From positions 682,001-746,000 of the forward strand of contig CP011489.1 in assembly GCA_001023575.1 (NCBI GenBank): 64,000 nucleotides of DNA. The letters are read 5' to 3'. Within the stretch, counting starts at the first letter, position 1. Every line of letters begins with the position of its first letter. The stretch is from Actinobacteria bacterium IMCC26256 (GTDB taxonomy: Bacteria; Actinomycetota; Acidimicrobiia; IMCC26256). The notes below the pieces were generated by a model, which was not told the origin of the DNA, searched no databases, and saw only the letters and a program-made list of their open reading frames with translations. Of the stretch, positions 33,966-48,561 are shown in pieces. A program made the position numbers and the translations under genes.

Positions 33966-35186
33966 TTACCCCGTATTCCTTAGGTCGGGTGGTGCTCGCC
34001 AATCCCACCTGGCCTCGCGTGCACCTTCACTCTCGGCCGTCTCCGCTGCAATTCTCTTGAGCCTGTATCCATCATGTGTTTTTTGGAGATGATGTCGCTT
34101 GCAGAGCCTTACGAGGTTCTCCAGGCTGGCGGCGCCGCCCTCAGCGAAGGGTTTGATGTGATCTATCTCTAGGCCAATGCTCATATCGCATGTTGGTACT
34201 TGACAGACGCGGTCGCGTTCCTCAAGAGCAGTTCGTAATGGTGCCGGAATTGCCCTGCCCATATGCGCAACCGTTCTGATATCTACTCCATCGAGAACAA
34301 GAAGCTTTAAGAATGCCTCGCCCAAATACTCTGTTGCAGTAGCCACCGGTATCGGTCCGACTCCAGCGATCTCACAGACCTCACCATTCTCAGTATGCCC
34401 ACGCTTAAGTGCATCAATGTCGACTCGAATATTGATCACAGCGTTAGAGCGACTCGCTTTCCCGCCACTCTCGCTCGACTGGTTGGTGGTCGCCTTCTCG
34501 CAGATTGCCATTAGAGCGTCAGCGGCGTAGGCCTCCGGTCTTTCATGCGCGCCACTCTTACGCGCTGCTTTAAAGATCTCGTCCTGTATAGGTTTGAGCG
34601 CCGCCATTACTAGCGCACCATTAGCAACGGTCATGCGCCCTTTGATAATGAATGCACCATCAGGGTCTCTCCACGATTTTAGGAAACGGCTGTTGTGTAT
34701 TCGTTTATCGCGTGCGGCCTCATCGGTGGCCCCTGCAATTACGCGAGCGGTTGCATCGCGTAGGTCGCGTACTGTTGCGTGTTTTGCGAGATTCAAGAGT
34801 TGTGTCTCCGTATTAGGTGCAACGATCGCACCTCGTGCAACCTCAACAGCCTGAGCATTTGAGAGCGTGCCTGAGCGCAGTGCTGCCTAGGTGACCGGCA
34901 GATGCTGCAGTTGGTTAGCGAGCACCACCACAGACTGGGCTTCATAGTGGGCACAATCTGTCTCGATAGCGAGCCACTCTGAAATACTCTTCGCGCCCTC
35001 ACCCTTCCAGCCATTGGTGCGCTCGACCTGGCCCACGGCCACAGTGCGGAGAGAATCAACTGCCCTGCGAGCGTCCTCAGAGATTCGGACCAACTCGGCC
35101 GCGGCCTTCCCATCGATCACATCGACGTCAATACGTAAAGTGACCTCTCGAAGGTGGATGACTGCGTCTTTAAGTTCATCGAACAT
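33966..35186 (-). pseudogene. DUF222/HNH endonuclease (13E12 family) gene interrupted by one in-frame TAG
   Basis: The frame from ATG 35186 (MFDELKDAV) to 33966 is continuous for 406 codons except for TAG at 34887-34889, where the intact paralogue at 43762 has Gln (VTQAALRSG). Both halves remain collinear and similar to the paralogue, including the HNH region IDHIKPFAEGGAASLENLVRLCKRHH and the CQVPTC pair, with no frameshift. This is a recent nonsense change, a sequencing error, or a suppressible stop. A LexA box overlaps the start codon. A downstream start at 34796 could yield a C-terminal fragment. Confidence 0.85.
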
Positions 35187-35194
35187 ATGTTCGA
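35179..35194. promoter_or_regulatory. LexA (SOS) box over the start of the interrupted HNH gene
   Basis: TCGAACATATGTTCGA is a perfect 16-base palindrome matching the actinobacterial LexA consensus TCGAAC-N4-GTTCGA. The ATG of the leftward gene lies in its centre. A TAGAGT -10-like box precedes it on the minus strand, implying a leaderless transcript blocked by LexA. Confidence 0.85.
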
Positions 35195-37747: not shown

Positions 37748-40700
37748 CTAGAGACCGATAACGGTTACTGGGATGTTCGAGTTGGTTGTGGTTCCATCCC
37801 CAAGCTCGCCAGAGCCGTTGGATCCCCAACAAACAACGCTCTGGTCCTCTAGTACTGAGCACGAGTGCTGGTCACGTGCTGAGACAGTTACGCCCGTTGA
37901 GAGGCCGGAGACCCTAACAGCGATGTTTGAGTTGCTATTCATTCCATTGCCGAGTTGACCGACTGAGTCGCGACCCCAGCACCCCACTTCACCACTCGCA
38001 ACAACGGCGCATGTGTGCCGCCATGCCGTAGTCACGTCGGTAGCGGTCGAGATTCCCGCTACTGCTACCGGAGTGTTTGAGTTGCTGTTGCTCGAGTTAC
38101 CGAGTTGACCATCTGAGTTATTTCCCCAGCATTTGATAGCCCCGGTATCAAGTACCGCGCATGAGTGGCTCTCGCCGGCATCGACGGAGCTTGCATCGGT
38201 GATCCCTGTGACCGAGACCGGGGTCAGCGACTGGGTATTAGATGCATTGCCGAGTTGGCCAGCGGAGTTGGCCCCCCAGCACTTAACACTGCCGTTAGCG
38301 AGTGAAGCACAGGTGTGGTCGTCGCCCACTCCAACTGAGGTTGCGGTAGTGATGCCAGTTACAGATACTGGAGTGGCTGACGATGTTGTGTTTCCAGTGC
38401 CCAACTGCCCGGCTGCATTCTTTCCCCAGCACTTAATACCCGCGTCGGCGAGGAGCGCGCAGGTGACGCTGCCGCCGGTGTCGATTGCTATCGCAGTTGA
38501 GATGCCGCTGACCGCCACCGGAGTATTTGAGTCGTCACCAGTTCCATCACCGAGTTGACCATCTCCGTTGTATCCCCAGCACTCCACGGTGCCATCTTCG
38601 AGGAGAGCGCAGGTATGAAGGTCTCCTGCCGCGATTGCAACCGCGGTCGATATGTTGCTTACCGAGACCGGTGTCAGCGAACTTACATTTGTTCCATCAC
38701 CAAGCTGGCCATAAGTGTTGTCCCCCCAGCAGGTGACGCTGCCTGTGGCTAGTGCAGCACAGGTATGGTTCAAACCTGCTGCAACTGCGATCGGTAATGG
38801 CAGCGGAATACCAAAAACGGTGACTGGGACATTCGAGTTGGTATTGGTGGCGTCGCCGAGCTCACCGTACCCGTTGTATCCCCAGCATTTGATCTTCGCG
38901 TTAGCGAGTAGCGCACACGAAGAGAGGTCGCCTGCTGCGATGGAGGTTGCGGTTGTGATGCCTGAGACTGTGACGGGAATATTCGAGTTGGTATTTGTTG
39001 CGTTGCCGAGTTGGCCATAGAAGTTAAATCCCCAGCATTGGACGGTCTGGTTAGCGAGTAGCGCACACGTATGGCGGCCACCTGCTGCTACGGAGGTTGC
39101 GGTTGTAATGCCTGAGACCGTGACGGGAATATTCGAGTCGGTATTTGTTGCGTTACCGAGCCGACCATTTGCGTTGTATCCCCAGCATTGGACGGTCTGG
39201 TTAGCGAGTAGCGCACACGCATGGCTGCCACCGGCTGTGATAGCGGTTGCGGCTGTGATGCCTGAGACTGGGACGGGAATATTCGAGTTGGTAATTGTTG
39301 CGTTACCGAGCTGTCCGTAGAAGTTGTATCCCCAGCATTTGATCGTCGCGTCATCGAGTAGGGCGCACGTATAGTTTGCCCCCGCTGCTATGGAGGTTGC
39401 GGTTGTGATGCCCGAGACTGTGACGGGGATATTTGAGGTGGTATTTGTTGCGTTGCCGAGCTGTCCGTATTGGTTGTATCCCCAGCATTGGACTGTCTGG
39501 TCAGCGAGCAGCGCACACGTATGGCTACCACCTGCTGCGATTGCTGTAGCGGTTGTGATGCCTGAGACTGGGACGGGGATATTGGAGTCGATGTTGGTGT
39601 CGTCGCCAAGCTGTCCAAGTGCGTTGAATCCCCAGCACTCGACCGTCGCGTCATCGAGCAGCGCACAGGTGTGGTATTGCCCGGCTGTTATGGAGATAGC
39701 GGTTGTGATGCCCGAGACTGTGACGGGGATATTCGAGCTGATATTGGTGGCGTCACCAAGCTGTCCGGTTTCGTTGTTGCCCCAGCATTGGACTGTCTGG
39801 TCAGGGAGTACCGCACAGGCATGGTTCAAACCTGCTGCGAGGATGGTGTCGGTCGCTGTCGGAAGAGCACTTGGGCCTTCGTAGTAGCCGACGACATCAA
39901 CAATTACATTCGGGCAACCACCACTAGCGAAGAGTGAGATCGCTCCAGCATCACCAACTTTTACAACAGTTCCGTTGGGTACTACCTGGCCGGCAACATA
40001 GTTAAGTGTTGAGGCTGTCGGGCGTGTCGCACCTGTCGGGAAAGCAGTTAAATATCCTGGCGTGGATGGCGATACAACTGTGATGTTTAACGCGACAGCG
40101 TTCGCACCATCAGGCACAGTTGTTGTGCCGCCAGTAACAGTGAGGTTACGAAGAGCACCAACACAGGGGCCTTCGCCGGGGTTGCGAGTATCAACAAGAC
40201 GCTTCGGGGTAAGACCTACAAAGCCGCCCTCTAATACTGGAGAGCCGCCTTCGTAGTAGCCGACAACATCAACGATTACGTTCGGGCATCCGCCATTCGA
40301 GAAGAGTGTGATTGCTCCAGCGTCGCCGACTTTTACAGTCACGTTGTTTGGTACTACCTGACCTGTTGAGTAGTTCAAGTTTGAGGCTGTGGGGCGTGAT
40401 GCGCCATTGGGGTAGACAGTCACATAACCAGGGGTTGTTGGTGAGACAACAGTTACATTCAAAGCAACAGCACTCGCACCCACAGGCACGGTTGTAGTGC
40501 CGCCAGTAACAGTGAGGTTACGAGTAGTCAGAAGGCATGGGCCTTCACCTGGGTTGCGAGAATCTACAAGACGCTTTGGTGTGACACCAACAAAACCACC
40601 AGGCGCTACAGGTGTAGTGCCATCAAAATATCCAAGGACATCAACAATCACATTCGGGCAACCAGCATTAGCAAAGAGTGTGATCTGGCCCGCGTCACCG

Positions 40701-41131
40701 ACTTTTACAAACACACCATTAGGGACTACTTCCCCTGCTACATAGTTCACGTTCGAGGCTGTTGGGCGTACTGCTCCTGTCGGGTAGACAGTCACATAAC
40801 CAGGGGTTGTTGGTGAGACAACAGTTACATTCAAAGCAACAGCACTCGCACCCACAGGCACGGTTGTAGCGCCACCAGTAACTGTGAGGTTACGGGGCGT
40901 CCCCAAGCAGGGAGTCTGGCCAGGGTTTCGAGTATCAAGAAGACGGTTAGGTGTAACACCAACAAAACCACCAGCCGAGACCGCCGCCGATGCCGGCACT
41001 GCATTGGCCACTACACCTGCAATGCCTGCAAGCCCTGCTGCCGAGAGGGCCAGGGCCACAATCGGGGCTGTCAGACGCGAGAAGAGCGAACGACTGTAAC
41101 GAGGAGTCGAGAATACGGTGTTGCTAGACAT
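37748..41131 (-). CDS. Secreted 1127-residue protein: three N-terminal repeats and 14 RCC1 blades
   Basis: A signal peptide (RLTAPIVALALSAAGLAGIAGVV, cleavage near residue 49 after ASA) is followed by three repeats of about 130 residues (about 50-440), each with RL(L/V)D(T/S)RNPG, NLTVTGG, ALNVTVVSP, TAS.(V/L)NY and VIVDV(L/V)GYF/Y. Repeats of this kind occur in many secreted actinobacterial proteins. From about 445 to the end there are 14 RCC1-like blades with paired Cys (H.CA and CWG), enough for two 7-blade propellers; the linker GIPLPLPIAV after blade 7 marks the join. Adhesion or ligand binding at the surface is an inference. DNA repeats between blades are strong, so assembly here deserves caution. 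Confidence 0.9.
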   Translation of the reverse strand: MSSNTVFSTPRYSRSLFSRLTAPIVALALSAAGLAGIAGVVANAVPASAAVSAGGFVGVTPNRLLDTRNPGQTPCLGTPRNLTVTGGATTVPVGASAVALNVTVVSPTTPGYVTVYPTGAVRPTASNVNYVAGEVVPNGVFVKVGDAGQITLFANAGCPNVIVDVLGYFDGTTPVAPGGFVGVTPKRLVDSRNPGEGPCLLTTRNLTVTGGTTTVPVGASAVALNVTVVSPTTPGYVTVYPNGASRPTASNLNYSTGQVVPNNVTVKVGDAGAITLFSNGGCPNVIVDVVGYYEGGSPVLEGGFVGLTPKRLVDTRNPGEGPCVGALRNLTVTGGTTTVPDGANAVALNITVVSPSTPGYLTAFPTGATRPTASTLNYVAGQVVPNGTVVKVGDAGAISLFASGGCPNVIVDVVGYYEGPSALPTATDTILAAGLNHACAVLPDQTVQCWGNNETGQLGDATNISSNIPVTVSGITTAISITAGQYHTCALLDDATVECWGFNALGQLGDDTNIDSNIPVPVSGITTATAIAAGGSHTCALLADQTVQCWGYNQYGQLGNATNTTSNIPVTVSGITTATSIAAGANYTCALLDDATIKCWGYNFYGQLGNATITNSNIPVPVSGITAATAITAGGSHACALLANQTVQCWGYNANGRLGNATNTDSNIPVTVSGITTATSVAAGGRHTCALLANQTVQCWGFNFYGQLGNATNTNSNIPVTVSGITTATSIAAGDLSSCALLANAKIKCWGYNGYGELGDATNTNSNVPVTVFGIPLPLPIAVAAGLNHTCAALATGSVTCWGDNTYGQLGDGTNVSSLTPVSVSNISTAVAIAAGDLHTCALLEDGTVECWGYNGDGQLGDGTGDDSNTPVAVSGISTAIAIDTGGSVTCALLADAGIKCWGKNAAGQLGTGNTTSSATPVSVTGITTATSVGVGDDHTCASLANGSVKCWGANSAGQLGNASNTQSLTPVSVTGITDASSVDAGESHSCAVLDTGAIKCWGNNSDGQLGNSSNSNSNTPVAVAGISTATDVTTAWRHTCAVVASGEVGCWGRDSVGQLGNGMNSNSNIAVRVSGLSTGVTVSARDQHSCSVLEDQSVVCWGSNGSGELGDGTTTNSNIPVTVIGL
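37770..39850 (-). repeat. 14 coding repeats of about 150 bases (RCC1 blades)
   Basis: Each unit of about 144-153 bases contains CCCCAGCA (CWG in antisense) and GTTGCCGAGTTGGCC-like segments. Units near 38900-39700 are the most alike, which suggests recent expansion inside the propeller region. Confidence 0.85.
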
Positions 41132-41304
41132 GAGCTCTCCAGAAGAGTTGGCGGATAGTTAGTTAGAAGGAAGATCGCCATAAACGTCTAGGAGGCTGAG
41201 GTCTTGAGGCCCAGAGTATTTGATATCAGCGATTGTCGGTGGGGACATAGCGAGCGTAGTGGGGTGCCCGATTTGGGGCAAATACTGGAGCCTCCTTGCA
41301 TGTG

Positions 41305-41318
41305 CGAACGTATGTTCG
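41305..41318. promoter_or_regulatory. LexA (SOS) box upstream of imuA'
   Basis: CGAACGTATGTTCG matches the actinobacterial SOS consensus CGAAC-N4-GTTCG exactly in both half-sites. It lies 13 bases before the probable GTG start of imuA' and overlaps a TATGTT -10-like box. Confidence 0.88.
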
Positions 41319-41331
41319 ATACCCTAGGGAG

Positions 41332-42018: not shown

Positions 42019-42060
42019 CGGTGGTTGCCTGATTATGGCTAACTGATTATGGGGACTCGA

Positions 42061-43641
42061 ATGCTCTCGATCTGGTGCCTTGATTGGCCCATTGTTGCGG
42101 CGCGAGCGCAAGAGCCTTCTCTAGAAGGGGTTCCTGTGGCTGTCCTCGTACGATCTCGGATTCTCGCGGCATCTACAGAGGCGCGAAATGTTGGTGTGAT
42201 ATCTGGTCTACGCCGTCGTGAGGCAGAGGCGCGTTGCCCCGGTATCGAGATAAGGGAGGCTGATCCTTCGTCTGAGGCTCGGGCATTTGAGGTAGTAGCG
42301 CGCTGCATCGAGACGCTTACTCCTCGTATAGAGATTGAGCGCCCTGGCATTCTCTCTTTCCCAACCCGCGGCCCATCGCGTTACTTCGGTGGCGATGAGT
42401 CTCTAGTCGCCGCAGTCTTAGCTGCGTTAAAGACTGCTGGGGTAGAGGAGGCAAGAGTGGGTATCGCTGATGGAGTCTTCGCCGCTCGCCTTGCAGCGCG
42501 CTCGAGCATTGTTGTGCCACGGAACGCAACCCCTGAGTTTCTTGCCCCTTGGTCTGTAGTGCATCTTGGGGAGCCCAATCTCTCTGGCGTGCTGATGCGT
42601 TTAGGGATACGCACGCTTGGCGACTTTGGGGCCTTACCGGTTGGTTCAGTAGTGGCTCGCTTTGGTGCGCAGGGATTAGAGGCGCATCGTCTTTCTATCG
42701 GCGAGGAGCGTTACCCTCCTGCACTCTCAACCCCACCAGCTGACCTTGTTGAGTCATGCGTTATAGACCCGCCATCGAATCGTGTCGATGAAGCTGCATT
42801 TATAGGCAAAACTCTTGCAGATCGATTACTTGAGCGCCTTGCTGCTCTTGGTCTTGCATGCACACGTGTTGTGATCGCATGTGAGACCGAGCATGGCGAG
42901 TCGCTAGAGCGTTGCTGGCGTCATGAGGGAGCACTTACCCCCGCAACACTTGCAACGAGAGTTAGGTGGCAGCTTGATGGCTGGCTCACCGAGTCCGGTG
43001 GGTTATCTGGCGGCTTGACGCTCCTTAGGCTTATCCCCGACGAAGTGATTCCTGCGGGTGGGAGTCAACTTGGATTCTGGGGTGGGGATCAAGCAGGTGC
43101 AGATCGGGCATCGCGCGTCTTTGCGCGCGTCCAGGGGATGCTCGGCCCCGATTCTGTAGTGACAGCGGTTGAGCAGGGTGGACGCACGCCCATAGAACGC
43201 GTGCGATGGGTTACATGGGGAGAGCCGCGTCTTGTTGATTTCAGAGGAGAGGGAGGAAAGCATCGAGGTACGGGTATGAGAGGCGCAGGTGCGAGTGGTG
43301 GGCATATCAACGCGGAGTCTTGGCCTGGAGCAGTACCTGGCCCTGCACCAGCGCGTGTCTTTGATCCTCCATATTCAGCGCAACTTCTAGATAGCAAGTC
43401 TCGACCTGTCTTGGTAAATGCACGAGGGGATGTTTCATCTACGCCGGCGATATTGAAGAGTGCAGCGTTGCCTGGTCAGGGAGGAGAGGTATCAGCATGG
43501 GCTGGCCCTTGGGCTCAAGATGTTCGATGGTGGGACCCTCTCGGGGAGCGCCGAGTGCTCTGGCATGTAGTCGTAGGGGATGTGGCATGCCTAGTGAGAG
43601 TTGAGCATGGGCGTGCCACCCTTGATGCGATCTATGACTGA
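42061..43641 (+). CDS. imuB: ImuB, catalytically inactive Y-family polymerase homologue
   Basis: 526 residues from ATG 42061 (GGGGA five bases upstream; an in-frame ATG at 42049 has no such site). The fold follows DinB-type polymerases but the N-terminal catalytic motif is replaced (SIWCLDWPIVAA instead of DMDAFFA), so it lacks polymerase acids, as in known ImuB. A beta-clamp-binding motif QLGFWG is seen at about residue 336. Thumb and little-finger-like regions follow (LGIRTLGDFGALP). ImuB is the hub linking ImuA', DnaE2 and the clamp during mutagenic repair. Confidence 0.92.
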   Translation: MLSIWCLDWPIVAARAQEPSLEGVPVAVLVRSRILAASTEARNVGVISGLRRREAEARCPGIEIREADPSSEARAFEVVARCIETLTPRIEIERPGILSFPTRGPSRYFGGDESLVAAVLAALKTAGVEEARVGIADGVFAARLAARSSIVVPRNATPEFLAPWSVVHLGEPNLSGVLMRLGIRTLGDFGALPVGSVVARFGAQGLEAHRLSIGEERYPPALSTPPADLVESCVIDPPSNRVDEAAFIGKTLADRLLERLAALGLACTRVVIACETEHGESLERCWRHEGALTPATLATRVRWQLDGWLTESGGLSGGLTLLRLIPDEVIPAGGSQLGFWGGDQAGADRASRVFARVQGMLGPDSVVTAVEQGGRTPIERVRWVTWGEPRLVDFRGEGGKHRGTGMRGAGASGGHINAESWPGAVPGPAPARVFDPPYSAQLLDSKSRPVLVNARGDVSSTPAILKSAALPGQGGEVSAWAGPWAQDVRWWDPLGERRVLWHVVVGDVACLVRVEHGRATLDAIYD

Positions 43642-43753
43642 GGAGATGTATTACTGAAGGGATGTGGTCAGAGTGGGTGCGATCGGTGTTTTAAGCGGAT
43701 TCTCTGGGGATTTTTGTCCTCCCTCTTTTAGTTGTCACACCCCTGTTTTAGAG

Positions 43754-43769
43754 TCGAACATATGTTCGA
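43754..43769. promoter_or_regulatory. LexA (SOS) box over the start of the intact HNH gene
   Basis: The same 16-base palindrome, TCGAACATATGTTCGA, as at 35179. The ATG 43762 lies within it. TAGAGT at 43749-43754 is a plausible -10. The preceding bases (GTCACACCCCTG) are also shared with the first copy. Confidence 0.88.
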
Positions 43770-44994
43770 CCGACTGGATCAACTCACAACAGAGCTCGAG
43801 GCCTGCTTTGCCTCAATGGAGGTTGACTGCTTCGATGGTGCCCGGGCTGCAAGGTTGGTGAGCTGCGGGGAGCGAGTCCGGCGTCTTGGTGATGCGATCC
43901 GCACTATCGGTGTTGGCCAGGTCGAGCGCACCAATGGCTGGAGAGGCCAGGGCGCTAAGAGCGTTGCGGAGTGGCTATCTATCGAGACGGATTGTGCTCA
44001 CTACGAGGCCCAGTCGGTTGTAATGCTCGCTGGTCAGCTCCAACATTTACCTGTTACCCAGGCTGCACTGCGCTCTGGTCAACTCTCAGGCACACAGGCT
44101 GTAGAGGTTGCGCGTGGTGCGATCGTTGCACCTAATACTGAGACACAACTATTGAACCTCTCCAAGCATGTAACGGTGCGCGATCTGCGAGATGCAACCT
44201 CTCGAGTAGTTGCAGCGGCTACTAATGAAGCAGAGCGGCACAGGCAGGTGCATAAATCGCGTTACTTAAAGTCGTGGATAGATCTTGATGGTTCATTCAA
44301 TCTAAAAGCGCGCATGACGGCTGCTAATGGTGCGCTTGTAATGGCAGCACTCAAGCCGATACAGGATGAGATCTTTAAGTCGGCGCGCAAGAGTGGTGCA
44401 CATGAAAGACCGGAGGCCTACGGAGCAGATGCGCTTATGGCGCTCTGTGAGAAGGCTAATCACGCTGCCTCCGCTCCAGCGGCGGGCGCGAGTAGAACGA
44501 AGACGACTCGATCTAATGCTGTGATGCATATTCGTGTCGACATAGATGCCCTCAAGCGTGGGCATACCGAACACGGCGAGATATGTGAAATTGCTGGAGT
44601 TGGCCCGATACCAGTGGCGACTGCAACTGAGTATTTGGGCGAGGCATTCTTAAAGCTTCTTGTTGTCGATGGGGTAGATATCAAGACGGTTGCGCATATG
44701 GGGCGACACATCCCTGCACCACTGCGAACAGCGGTTGAAGAACGCGACCGTGTCTGCCAAGTACCGATGTGCGACATGAGTGTTGGCCTAGAGATTGATC
44801 ACATCAAACCCTTCGCTGAGGGTGGCGCCGCAAGCTTGGAGAATCTGGTGCGGCTCTGTAAGCGCCATCACCTTAAAAAAACGCACGATGGTTACCGACT
44901 CATCAAGGTAGAGGCCGGCGAGGGTGAGATTGGCGTGGAGCAGGAGGCCAGGTGGGATTGGAGAGCACCACCGGATTTAAGGAACACCGGGTAG
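43762..44994 (+). CDS. DUF222/HNH endonuclease (13E12 family), intact, SOS-controlled
   Basis: 410 residues from ATG 43762 (MFDRLDQL), chosen because the paralogue at 35186 starts at the same place; the frame is open 10 codons further. The N-terminal DUF222 region (about 1-300) is largely helical. The C-terminal HNH nuclease has CQVPMCD, then IDHIKPFAEGGAASLENL and CKRHH, giving the His-Asn-His residues and two Cys pairs for zinc. 13E12-family members with SOS boxes are known in mycobacteria. It lies between imuB and dnaE2 with its own LexA box, so it should be induced with the mutasome. Its DNA target is unknown. Confidence 0.9.
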   Translation: MFDRLDQLTTELEACFASMEVDCFDGARAARLVSCGERVRRLGDAIRTIGVGQVERTNGWRGQGAKSVAEWLSIETDCAHYEAQSVVMLAGQLQHLPVTQAALRSGQLSGTQAVEVARGAIVAPNTETQLLNLSKHVTVRDLRDATSRVVAAATNEAERHRQVHKSRYLKSWIDLDGSFNLKARMTAANGALVMAALKPIQDEIFKSARKSGAHERPEAYGADALMALCEKANHAASAPAAGASRTKTTRSNAVMHIRVDIDALKRGHTEHGEICEIAGVGPIPVATATEYLGEAFLKLLVVDGVDIKTVAHMGRHIPAPLRTAVEERDRVCQVPMCDMSVGLEIDHIKPFAEGGAASLENLVRLCKRHHLKKTHDGYRLIKVEAGEGEIGVEQEARWDWRAPPDLRNTG

Positions 44995-45037
44995 CGCCGG
45001 GTAGTGCCGGGTAATGCCGGGTAATGCCGGGTATTTG
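44981..45037 (+). repeat. 10-base tandem repeat after the HNH gene
   Basis: Consecutive units GTAGCGCCGG, GTAGTGCCGG, GTAATGCCGG, GTAATGCCGG begin at 44991, flanked by degenerate copies on both sides (GGAACACCGG before, GTATTTGGGC after). The HNH stop codon TAG (44992-44994) lies in the first unit. Confidence 0.85.
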
Positions 45038-45073
45038 GGCAGGGAGCAGGGCAAATAATTGGGGCTTGTGGTA

Positions 45074-45087
45074 CGAACGTGTGTTCG
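45074..45087. promoter_or_regulatory. LexA (SOS) box upstream of dnaE2
   Basis: CGAACGTGTGTTCG has both exact half-sites of the actinobacterial SOS consensus. It lies 90 bases before the dnaE2 ATG, leaving room for a promoter and a conventional leader. Confidence 0.87.
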
Positions 45088-45177
45088 ATACTCTCAGATC
45101 CTTATGCCGTCAGAGATCGACCCAGATCTACCTCGGGTCTACGCAGTAGTCCCTCGAAAACCGAAAGGAGCAGCGCC

Positions 45178-48100
45178 ATGAGCAATCAATCCAAGAGCCC
45201 CGCGGGTAATGCCGTGCGCAGCGCCTCCGGCAGAGGCTTGAGCGTGGGCCGATCCCATAAGTCCCATAAGTATGCAGAGCTGCACTGCCATACGAACTTC
45301 TCTTTCCTCGATGGGGCAAGCCACCCTGAAGAGTTAGTGGAGGAGGCTTACAGGCTCGGCCTAAGTGCTCTCGCCACTACCGATCACGATGGCCTCTACG
45401 CAGTGGTTCGCAGCGCCGTAGCGGCTCGCACCCTTGGTCTCCCGACAGTCTTTGGAGCGGAGATCACCCTCACCTCCGAGCATGTTTTGCAGGGCAGTTC
45501 TTCTAATAAAAGTGCTCTGGATAACTCTGCAGATCCACATGGAGCGCATCTCCTAGTTCTTGCAGAGGGTGTATCTGGCTACTCCGCTCTATCTAGAGCT
45601 ATTAGCGAGGCCCAGATGCGCGGCTCTAAGGGCGCACCTATATCGACGCTCTCTGATCTTGCAGCATCCCCTGCTGCGGGTAGAAGTTGGTTCGTGCTCA
45701 CAGGGTGCCGTAAGGGAACCGTTCCATCGGCACTTATAAACGAAGGCCCTGCCGCTGCACGCACTGCACTTGATCGTCTCGTCTCTGATTTTGGGCGAGA
45801 CCGTGTCTTTGTGGAGTTATGGGATCACGGAGATCCACTAGATAGGCCTCGTAACGATGCCCTAAGCGAGATTGCATCAAGAGCAGGTGTCGAGGTTGTT
45901 GCTACAAACAATGTTCACTATGCAACCCCCGCCGATCATCGTCTCGCAACTGCACTAGCTGCGGTACGTGCGCGCCGTTCTCTAGATGAGATGGATGGAT
46001 GGCTACCCGCGGCTCCATTCGCTCATCTGCGTAGCCCCGCCGAGCAGGCACGACGCTTTGCTCGCTACCCAGGAGCAGTGGAGCGCACCGTAGAGATTGC
46101 AGAGGCCGCGGCCTTTGACCTGCGTATTGCGGTACCGAACTTGCCTGATTACCCAGTCCCGGATGGCCACGATGAGATGTCGTGGTTGAGGGTTCTGACA
46201 ACACATGGAGCAGCGGTTAAGTACCCATCAACGCACCCACAGTATGGCGAGGCGATGCGTCAGATTGATTATGAGTTAAGTGTTATTGATCAGATGGGTT
46301 TCCCGGGCTACTTCTTACTTCTCCATGACATTGTCGAGTTCTGTCGTCGCCAAGATATCTATTGCCAGGGGAGAGGTAGCGCTGCGAATAGCGCAGTCTG
46401 TTACGCGCTAGGTGTAACAAAGGCCGATGCTGTCGCTCTTGGGCTCTTATTTGAGAGGTTCTTATCGACAGAGCGTGATGGACCGCCCGATATTGATTTA
46501 GATATCGAGCATCAAAGACGCGAGGAGGTGATCCAGTATGTATACGAACGCTACGGACGTGATCGCGCAGCCCAGGTTGCAAATGTCATTACCTATAGAT
46601 CGCGCTCTGCCTTACGTGACATGGCAAAGGCATGTGGACTCTCGCCAGGGCATGCTGATGCACTTACACGCCAACTAGATAGACGTAGATCTGGCGAGGA
46701 TGCTTTTGCTGCTCTAGCGAGTGGCGAGGACGGAGCGCCGGCCCCACCCCTTGTCCTAGAGCTAGCTACTGCAGTGCGTAATTTCCCCAGGCATCTTGGG
46801 ATTCACTCCGGCGGAATGGTTATGGCAGATCGCCCTCTTATCGAGTGCTGCCCAGTGGAGTGGGGGCGTATGGAGGGGAGGTCTGTGCTGCAGTGGGATA
46901 AAGAAGACTGTGCCGCTGCAGGTTTAGTGAAGTTTGATCTTCTAGGGCTCGGCATGCTCACTGCCTTGCACATGGCTGTTGATTTGGTACGCGAGCATGA
47001 AGGGGTTGAGATTGATCTTGCGACTATTCCCCAAGAGGACGAGGTCTACGACCTGCTCTGCGCTGCGGACACCATCGGGGTCTTTCAGGTAGAGAGTCGA
47101 GCGCAGATGGCAACTCTCCCGCGCCTGCAGCCGCGTACTTTCTACGATCTAGTGGTTGAGGTAGCACTGATCAGACCTGGGCCCATACAGGGAGGTTCGG
47201 TGCACCCATACCTACGCAGGCGTATGGGAGAAGAGCCTGTTACCTACCTCCATCCGTTGCTAGAGCCCTGCCTTGCGAAGACTCTTGGGGTCCCGTTATT
47301 CCAAGAGCAGTTGATGCAGATGGCGATAGACGTGGCTGGCTTTACGGCCGGCGAGGCAGACCAACTCCGTCAGGCAATGGGCTCCAAGCGCTCGAAGCAA
47401 CGTATGGAGAGAATGCGTGAGCGACTTATGGCGGGCATGGCAGAGAGGGGTATAACCGGTGAGATCGCAGATGAGATTGCGAAGAAGTTAGAGGCTTTTG
47501 CAAATTTTGGATTCCCTGAGAGTCACTCGGTGAGCTTTGCCTACATCGTCTACTCAAGTGCTTGGATCAAGTATCACCATCCAGCGGAGTTCGCATGCGC
47601 ACTCCTTAACTCTCAGCCGATGGGTTTCTACTCGCCACATACGATTGTGCGCGATGCGCGTCGTCATGGAGTCGAGACTCTCGGTGCGTGTATTGCCCAG
47701 TCGAGGCGCGACTGCACTCTTGAGTCGCGTAGCGATGAAGCCGGACCTCAAGGGTTCCCTATGCGTGGATGGCATGCAGATCCATCGGTACATGCTCTGC
47801 GCCTTGGCCTGCGATATGTGCGCGGGCTTCCATCGGCCTTACTTAATCGCATCGACGCGGAGCGCGAGCAGGGGCCATTCGTCGATATTGAAGACTTTGC
47901 TCGCCGCACGGATGCCCCTGTAGATGCGCTTGAGTCGCTCGCTACTGCGGGTGCGTTCTCCATATTTGGTCATGACCGTCGTGAGGCCCTCTGGTCAGCC
48001 GGTGCACTTAGGGCAACTCGCCCAGGTATGCGCAGGCAGGCAGGCAGGGGAGCGAGTACGGGAGCAGGTAAAGGCTCGGTAGTTCGCTCCGATCGACTCC

Positions 48101-48561
48101 CGGGATTGGTCCCAGGGATGGAGGCCCCAACCCTGCCGGGCATGGAGCCCGAGGAGGTAGTCGCCGCCGATCTATGGGCAACCGGGATCTCTCCAGATCA
48201 CCACCCGACTGAGTTCTCTCGGGCAGACCTAGTTAAGCGCGGTGTCGTTACTACGGGCTCGTTGCGCGATACGCCACACGGAACCGTGGTTGAGGTTGCT
48301 GGGCTTGTGACACATCGTCAGCAACCGGAGACTGCAGGGGGCGTGGTCTTTATCAACCTTGAGGATGAAGACGGGCTTCTAAATGTGATCTGTACTGCTG
48401 CAGTCTGGGCCCGATATAAACGCATCGCAAGTCGATCCCCAGCACTCTGCGTACGAGGAATTTTAGAGCGACGTCGTGGGGTTACGAATCTCTTAGCTCA
48501 ACGCATTGAAGTGCTATCGATATCGCTTACTGGAGTACAGCGGTCCAGAGACTTCCGCTAG
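45178..48561 (+). CDS. dnaE2: Error-prone DNA polymerase III alpha subunit DnaE2
   Basis: 1127 residues from ATG 45178, which has AAAGGAG 8 bases upstream; the frame is open to 45079, but those codons cross the LexA box. N-terminal PHP domain (AELHCHTNFSFLDGASHPEE; TTDHDGLYAV), polymerase palm with PDIDLDIEHQRR aspartates (about 465), a helix-hairpin region, and a C-terminal OB fold (GTVVEVAGLVTHRQQPETAGG). DnaE2 is shorter than replicative DnaE and works with ImuA'/ImuB in damage-induced mutagenesis and lesion bypass. It is convergent with the GGDEF-EAL gene 20 bases away. Confidence 0.94.
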   Translation: MSNQSKSPAGNAVRSASGRGLSVGRSHKSHKYAELHCHTNFSFLDGASHPEELVEEAYRLGLSALATTDHDGLYAVVRSAVAARTLGLPTVFGAEITLTSEHVLQGSSSNKSALDNSADPHGAHLLVLAEGVSGYSALSRAISEAQMRGSKGAPISTLSDLAASPAAGRSWFVLTGCRKGTVPSALINEGPAAARTALDRLVSDFGRDRVFVELWDHGDPLDRPRNDALSEIASRAGVEVVATNNVHYATPADHRLATALAAVRARRSLDEMDGWLPAAPFAHLRSPAEQARRFARYPGAVERTVEIAEAAAFDLRIAVPNLPDYPVPDGHDEMSWLRVLTTHGAAVKYPSTHPQYGEAMRQIDYELSVIDQMGFPGYFLLLHDIVEFCRRQDIYCQGRGSAANSAVCYALGVTKADAVALGLLFERFLSTERDGPPDIDLDIEHQRREEVIQYVYERYGRDRAAQVANVITYRSRSALRDMAKACGLSPGHADALTRQLDRRRSGEDAFAALASGEDGAPAPPLVLELATAVRNFPRHLGIHSGGMVMADRPLIECCPVEWGRMEGRSVLQWDKEDCAAAGLVKFDLLGLGMLTALHMAVDLVREHEGVEIDLATIPQEDEVYDLLCAADTIGVFQVESRAQMATLPRLQPRTFYDLVVEVALIRPGPIQGGSVHPYLRRRMGEEPVTYLHPLLEPCLAKTLGVPLFQEQLMQMAIDVAGFTAGEADQLRQAMGSKRSKQRMERMRERLMAGMAERGITGEIADEIAKKLEAFANFGFPESHSVSFAYIVYSSAWIKYHHPAEFACALLNSQPMGFYSPHTIVRDARRHGVETLGACIAQSRRDCTLESRSDEAGPQGFPMRGWHADPSVHALRLGLRYVRGLPSALLNRIDAEREQGPFVDIEDFARRTDAPVDALESLATAGAFSIFGHDRREALWSAGALRATRPGMRRQAGRGASTGAGKGSVVRSDRLPGLVPGMEAPTLPGMEPEEVVAADLWATGISPDHHPTEFSRADLVKRGVVTTGSLRDTPHGTVVEVAGLVTHRQQPETAGGVVFINLEDEDGLLNVICTAAVWARYKRIASRSPALCVRGILERRRGVTNLLAQRIEVLSISLTGVQRSRDFR

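Follow-up and report, generated by a model that had tools for sequence, protein, structure and literature searches.

Why should a gene for a nuclease-like protein lie between imuB and dnaE2, within the mutasome, with a LexA box over its start codon? The question is raised by a stretch of 64,000 nucleotides of Actinobacteria bacterium IMCC26256 (contig CP011489.1, positions 682,001 to 746,000 of the forward strand), analysed here as a whole and referred to as the window. An earlier note on it had suggested either a role of the nuclease in processing DNA before or after mutagenic synthesis or a selfish element that uses the SOS state to home or duplicate. The real surprise, as argued below, is not the mutasome position of this gene but the 30-fold SOS wiring of one nuclease family, to which most recognisable SOS-controlled genes of the genome belong.

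The DUF222-HNH gene and its neighbours

The features of the window that the argument needs are the following, in window coordinates:

33966-35186, minus strand: second DUF222-HNH copy, with one in-frame TAG at codon 100 (about 34887-34889)
35179-35194: predicted LexA operator of the second copy, identical to TCGAACATATGTTCGA, on its start codon
41296-42018, plus strand: imuA' candidate, with no Pfam match; a 47-49% identical ORF precedes imuB in order relatives
41304-41319: LexA box GCGAACGTATGTTCGA at the 5' end of imuA', matching at 11/12 arm positions
42049-43641, plus strand: imuB (IMS family, Y-family-like), from Pfam
43726-43753, plus strand: putative promoter of the mutasome DUF222 copy, from the sequence and the column conservation in 30 copies
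43754-43769: predicted LexA operator TCGAACATATGTTCGA, covering the ATG, with 16/16 bases identical in 30/30 genomic copies
43762-44994, plus strand: DUF222-HNH protein P0001, 410 aa (ATG at 43762, stop at 44992-44994), from the ORF and Pfam
45073-45088: LexA box ACGAACGTGTGTTCGA upstream of dnaE2, 79 bp past the DUF222 stop
45178-48561, plus strand: dnaE2 (Pfam DNA pol III alpha), its ATG preceded by the Shine-Dalgarno sequence AAAGGAG

In P0001, a Pfam search places a DUF222 domain (PF02720, E 9e-10) followed by a C-terminal HNH domain (PF01844, E 2e-7) whose core occupies about 44779-44886 (residues 340-375), so that the nuclease-like character first read from the letters is borne out by domain prediction. 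Both domains lie above the curated cut-off, and the low DUF222 score (38.8 bits) assigns the protein to a divergent DUF222 subfamily. A sequence search of the PDB returned only HNH-domain matches (a Cas8f-HNH fusion, E 1e-4), and the AlphaFold model, with a mean pLDDT of 43, was too poor for use. Upstream of the gene, the putative promoter comprises a weak -35 (TTTTAG, 43726-43731), the family-conserved TGTCACACC (43733-43741) and a -10 (TAGAGT) that overlaps the first base of the LexA box. Downstream, short tandem CCGGGTA(A/G) repeats (~10-bp unit, four copies, 44985-45035) are found at and after the DUF222 stop, and for dnaE2 a GTG at 45079 is likewise in frame. On its other side, the imu operon is adjoined by the gene of a 1127-aa RCC1-repeat protein with 12 matched stretches (37748-41131, minus strand).

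The second copy, read on the minus strand from 35186 to 33966, carries the identical box and the same upstream GTCACACCCCTG as the mutasome copy, just as the earlier note had described; the TAG had been missed there, and by its sequence this copy would be either a pseudogene or the bearer of a recent nonsense mutation.

Thirty boxed copies across the genome

The genome (G000) is a single contig of 2,461,858 bp (2.46 Mb), in which the exact 16-mer occurs 30 times, while far less than one occurrence is expected from length alone. Each of the 30 sites is the start codon of a DUF222-HNH copy; of these copies 28 are intact, the second copy of the window has the TAG, and one is a truncated remnant. 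When a distant family member served as query for a homology search and each of the 34 candidates was scored, 29 copies were recovered, 29/29 of them boxed on the ATG, and neither the box search nor the homology search found any unboxed DUF222 gene in the genome. PF02720 itself gave at least 20 matches, against 30 copies from the box search and 29 from the homology search. Altogether the units amount to 36.7 kb, i.e., 1.5% of the genome; their sites appear intergenic, as judged by the neighbouring ORFs, and their spacing and clustering show no departure from random. A degenerate form of the LexA box matches the genome 42 times, compared with 5 for a reversed control; if only the window is considered, loose LexA-like matches number 4 where 2.55 would be expected, which does not exceed chance.

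The box as a predicted LexA operator on the start codon

Boxes of the same form are present at lexA (two, upstream), at recA (~330 bp upstream), at the start of radA, at uvrD/pcrA, imuA' and dnaE2, and over the start of ruvC, which heads ruvCAB; these SOS genes were named by inspection of their translations and with the help of Pfam searches for LexA and RecA. Since all these genes share the operator type, the 16-mer on the DUF222-HNH starts is a predicted LexA operator, in agreement with the LexA control across the start codon proposed before. The cassette boxes are even closer to the consensus than those of the repair genes: perfect 12/12 arms are found in 30/30 of them, but only in 1/8 of the other SOS sites (Fisher P 6e-7). 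At ruvC (L031 1969, G000:C1:1029468), a perfect-arm LexA box, TCGAACCCATGTTCGA, lies exactly over the ATG, and the RuvC protein therefore likewise begins MFD.

Could the box nevertheless be conserved merely as coding sequence, or by hitch-hiking? The copies are paralogous, and TCGAACATATGTTCGA doubles as coding sequence for a conserved start, M-F-D or M-F-E. However, the non-coding half of the box is invariant in 30/30 copies, and the third base of the Phe2 codon, inside the box, is C in every copy (30/30) even though TTT accounts for 26% of the other Phe codons (P about 1e-4), whereas the synonymous base immediately outside varies 18/12. These three observations indicate that the box is constrained as DNA, beyond its coding role. 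With the same motif at lexA, recA, ruvC and dnaE2, and with boxes also at diverged DUF222 genes, the idea that it is no operator is hardly credible.

The surroundings of the box are conserved as well. TGTC[AC]CACC is present at -29 to -21 in 30/30 copies, and an invariant TTA (-14 to -12) forms part of a -10-like TATAAT/TAGAGT, which lies 7 nt before the ATG and is separated by a 17-bp spacer from a weak -35. Before the cassette ATG there is no Shine-Dalgarno sequence, in which dnaE2 differs (AAAGGAG before ATG 45178). Together, the distance of the -10 and the missing Shine-Dalgarno make a leaderless transcript, with LexA covering its start, the natural reading, as had been supposed from the window.

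The repeated unit, its selection and its history

What is repeated is a unit of ~1.25 kb, from about -30 to the stop codon; upstream similarity is gone near -36, and outside the promoter-to-stop segment the flanks are mutually unrelated. The HNH core is intact in 29/29 full-length copies, and a dN/dS of 0.07-0.22 among copies points to purifying selection. A transposon or insertion sequence was considered and rejected: no target-site duplication above shuffle was detected at the cassette sites, and the unit encodes the DUF222-HNH protein only, without a transposase.

Two drafts assigned to the same genus (G001 and G003, both fragmented MAGs) allow the history of the sites to be followed. About 20 sites hold a copy at matching flanks in these two drafts, and the mutasome site in G001 is filled by a 97%-identical copy. 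Three sites are empty: L035 and L048 in both drafts, and L064 in G001. Judged by the recA locus, G000 is sister to G003, so L035 and L048 are most simply gains in the G000 lineage. The closest sampled copies to those at L035 and L048 are, at best, 81% and 91% identical, respectively; none of the sampled genomes contains a near-identical source, which leaves recent copying within the genome undemonstrated, with import or loss elsewhere as the alternatives. In G003, an internally deleted cassette remnant is found at the L060 site.

Replacement of the 5' half is seen at several shared sites, where same-site copies are 44-65% identical in that half and ~90% at the 3' end. Within the complete genome, neighbouring windows are linked with an r of mostly ~0.8 over the first 430 nt, falling to ~0 downstream, which indicates that the copies are mosaics made by recombination; single junctions in G001 and G003 are possible assembly errors, while for this intragenomic signal the single-contig genome is the source. 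Plain RecA-mediated exchange between repeats, with no role of the nuclease, may account for the mosaicism. A breakpoint lying exactly at the LexA box was also considered, on the grounds that linkage is missing between promoter and N-terminal haplotypes (r 0.03; coding controls 0.64), and it is not claimed because linkage is missing within the promoter block as well. One right flank stands apart: L127 (G001:C201) and L049 are 99.7% identical beside the cassette, when most flanks shared by G000 and G001 are ~85-95% identical, reflecting either a recent exchange bounded by the cassette or an assembly chimera.

Are these cassettes, then, selfish elements of the homing type, whose nuclease cuts cassette-free sites that are afterwards filled by recombination, with SOS control making this coincide with RecA activity? 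Empty and filled sites among close genomes, a dispersed cassette with defined limits, the conversion mosaics and an HNH core as in many homing nucleases would be expected from it. On the contrary, the cassettes occupy unrelated intergenic sequences in which neither a common target nor a target duplication was seen, most sites are stable within the genus, copies at fixed ones show no decay, and carriage by mobile replicons is lacking, all of which makes homing unlikely. From the selfish element of the earlier note, repetition and shuffling are thus retained, but homing stays unproven, given the lack of target duplications and of phage or plasmid carriage and the purifying selection at fixed sites.

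DUF222 genes and boxes in relatives

Among order relatives, a LexA-type box is present in the start region of 10/26 DUF222 loci as opposed to 1/398 control windows, and across the phylum an SOS box is found at 8/26 DUF222 starts and in 0/405 control windows. Pooled, 18/52 DUF222 loci are boxed versus 1/803 control windows, a strong enrichment, and in five loci (L085, L090, L094, L206 and L208) the position of the box relative to the ATG, which it overlaps, is also the same. The earlier note had staked its reading on the neighbourhood not being unique to this genome and on there being other SOS-boxed DUF222 genes, and with 30 boxed copies and boxed relatives this is decisively the case. The link between SOS boxes and DUF222 holds across the phylum, and in the present genome operator, start codon and coding sequence are visibly under selection.

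The named close relatives are freshwater-type MAGs (e.g., UFOp-RE-4nov15-119). Full-length relatives number 0 in 50,697 phage records and 1 in 72,556 plasmids, and there are essentially none in viral contigs. The MAG TrH-25oct19-242 (L236, L237 and L240), titled Bifidobacterium breve, carries close family relatives in matching flanks, and its title is probably a label error. A distant genome assigned to the same genus (G002, 79% complete) has recA and is 67% identical around it; in this incomplete assembly no LexA, dnaE2, DUF222 or exact box was found, and a loss of the whole SOS regulon is possible.

Does the mutasome position matter?

A DNA-repair nuclease working with the mutasome or with RuvCAB, for example in the mismatch repair proposed for M. 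tuberculosis (PMC4181829), would explain a LexA regulon shared with imuA'-imuB, dnaE2, ruvCAB, radA and uvrD, and this genome is one of four lineages in which a DUF222 gene lies beside dnaE2. The other three are G017 and G045, where the gene is divergent, and G032, where it is decayed; their dnaE2-adjacent DUF222 genes have different orientations and are 26-39% identical. In G045 (L161 6358-6404), a pair of LexA boxes, 31 bp apart, seems to be common to dnaE2 and the divergent DUF222 gene. The adjacency, recognised after the fact, amounts to 2/29 surveyed relative loci plus G017, noticed from coordinates, and a significant association was rejected as suggestive but near chance, because DUF222 copies are so numerous; there is a small possibility of a real attraction between SOS loci.

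Conserved linkage across relatives was not found: in most order relatives in which both genes were seen, dnaE2 comes after imuB without an intervening DUF222 gene. Moreover, DUF222 copy number varies widely among dnaE2-bearing relatives, with none detected in G029, G036 and G039, and a repair function sits badly with this unevenness and with 30 dispersed copies. Taken together, we regard a dedicated repair nuclease as quite improbable, and the specific role in mutagenic synthesis is not upheld. The mutasome position is probably incidental, this being one of 30 scattered copies, all with the same promoter and with the same operator on the start.

Proposed explanation

The reading that we favour, and hold to be rather probable on the sequence evidence, is that of a 30-copy chromosomal family of LexA-repressed DUF222-HNH cassettes of the 13E12 type, spreading and shuffling by recombination. 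Each cassette would consist of a sigma-70-like promoter, a LexA operator on the transcription and translation start, and the ORF. LexA lying across the -10 and start region would keep the nuclease fully off in undamaged cells, and since the cassette operators are closer to the consensus than the repair-gene ones, derepression of the family would come late, under heavy damage. The HNH domain might then cut DNA while the boxed RecA and RuvCAB are available, and repair by these proteins, templated by other cassettes, could produce the observed mosaics and occasionally fill new sites. The mutasome position would be one such insertion site, with no dedicated role in DnaE2 synthesis.

What would such a nuclease be kept for? 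One answer is a function in host cell fate or defence, in which a late-SOS battery of DNases destroys heavily damaged or phage-attacked DNA, as programmed death or abortive defence; the number of copies would then follow from dosage or from diversified targets and not from selfish spread. The purifying selection seen at fixed sites agrees with this function, the perfect operators suggest tight repression of something harmful, and the near absence of full-length phage and plasmid relatives indicates a chromosomal trait. There is also the example of the HNH nuclease MSMEG_1275 from M. smegmatis, which cleaves chromosomal DNA and kills (PMC9416677), although it is not called a DUF222 protein in that work and the parallel is by motif only. 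Nonetheless, a search of defence families gave no match above noise and the unit is not accompanied by any immunity or partner gene, and we consider this function a tentative possibility. In similarly tentative terms, the cassette family set out above, with tens of near-identically wired members, may represent a large nuclease arm of the SOS response in Actinomycetota that is kept silent by the genome's best-matching LexA operators, fires late when damage is heavy and cuts DNA, leading to programmed death or to defence, or else to recombinational copying of the cassettes. If so, the LexA regulon of this organism would be, by gene count, mostly the DUF222-HNH family.

Comparison with known systems

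In LexA-controlled nuclease colicins, an HNH nuclease is held off by strong LexA operators, and the cassettes resemble them in combining such a gene with such operators. Unlike them, they have no immunity or lysis gene and no receptor or translocation domains, and they are chromosomal and present in 30 copies. A nuclease bacteriocin was accordingly rejected, there being no travelling immunity gene and the flanks of the units being mutually unrelated beyond the stop codon. With HNH homing endonucleases they share the catalytic core and the presence or absence of the cassette between close genomes; in contrast, they are not placed in introns, inteins or conserved target genes. The flanks of the three empty sites (L035, L048 and L064) have no visible common target, and their junctions are blurred.

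The remaining comparison is with the 13E12 (REP13E12) proteins of M. tuberculosis, which we take to contain DUF222. The cassettes share with them the features by which the type is recognised, i.e., DUF222 followed by a C-terminal HNH domain, a multicopy and dispersed occurrence, and a LexA box at the promoter, which here is of one type with the operators at lexA, recA and further SOS genes of the same genome. In M. tuberculosis, LexA has the 13E12 HNH genes among its targets (PMC4181829, PMC5005354), the response of five HNH genes to mitomycin is RecA-dependent (PMC8151990), and a mismatch-repair role together with RuvABC and DnaE2-ImuAB has been proposed (PMC4181829). Both systems comprise multicopy, LexA-controlled HNH genes with a TCGAAC-N4-GTTCGA box, and the M. 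tuberculosis family has been described as mobile-element-like (PMC4181829, PMC5005354, PMC8151990). Some of the 10 family genes are counted as LexA targets in M. tuberculosis, whereas here all copies are boxed, 30 of them in 2.46 Mb, each with an identical perfect palindrome exactly on the ATG and with the conserved TGTC[AC]CACC promoter element. Linking the two through the literature and domain knowledge, we read the DUF222-HNH cassettes as an extreme variant or expansion of the 13E12 kind and not as a new category. Such an expansion offers a direct route to test why actinobacteria, M. tuberculosis included, keep many LexA-controlled nucleases of this type, and also whether the SOS state drives gene conversion among their copies.
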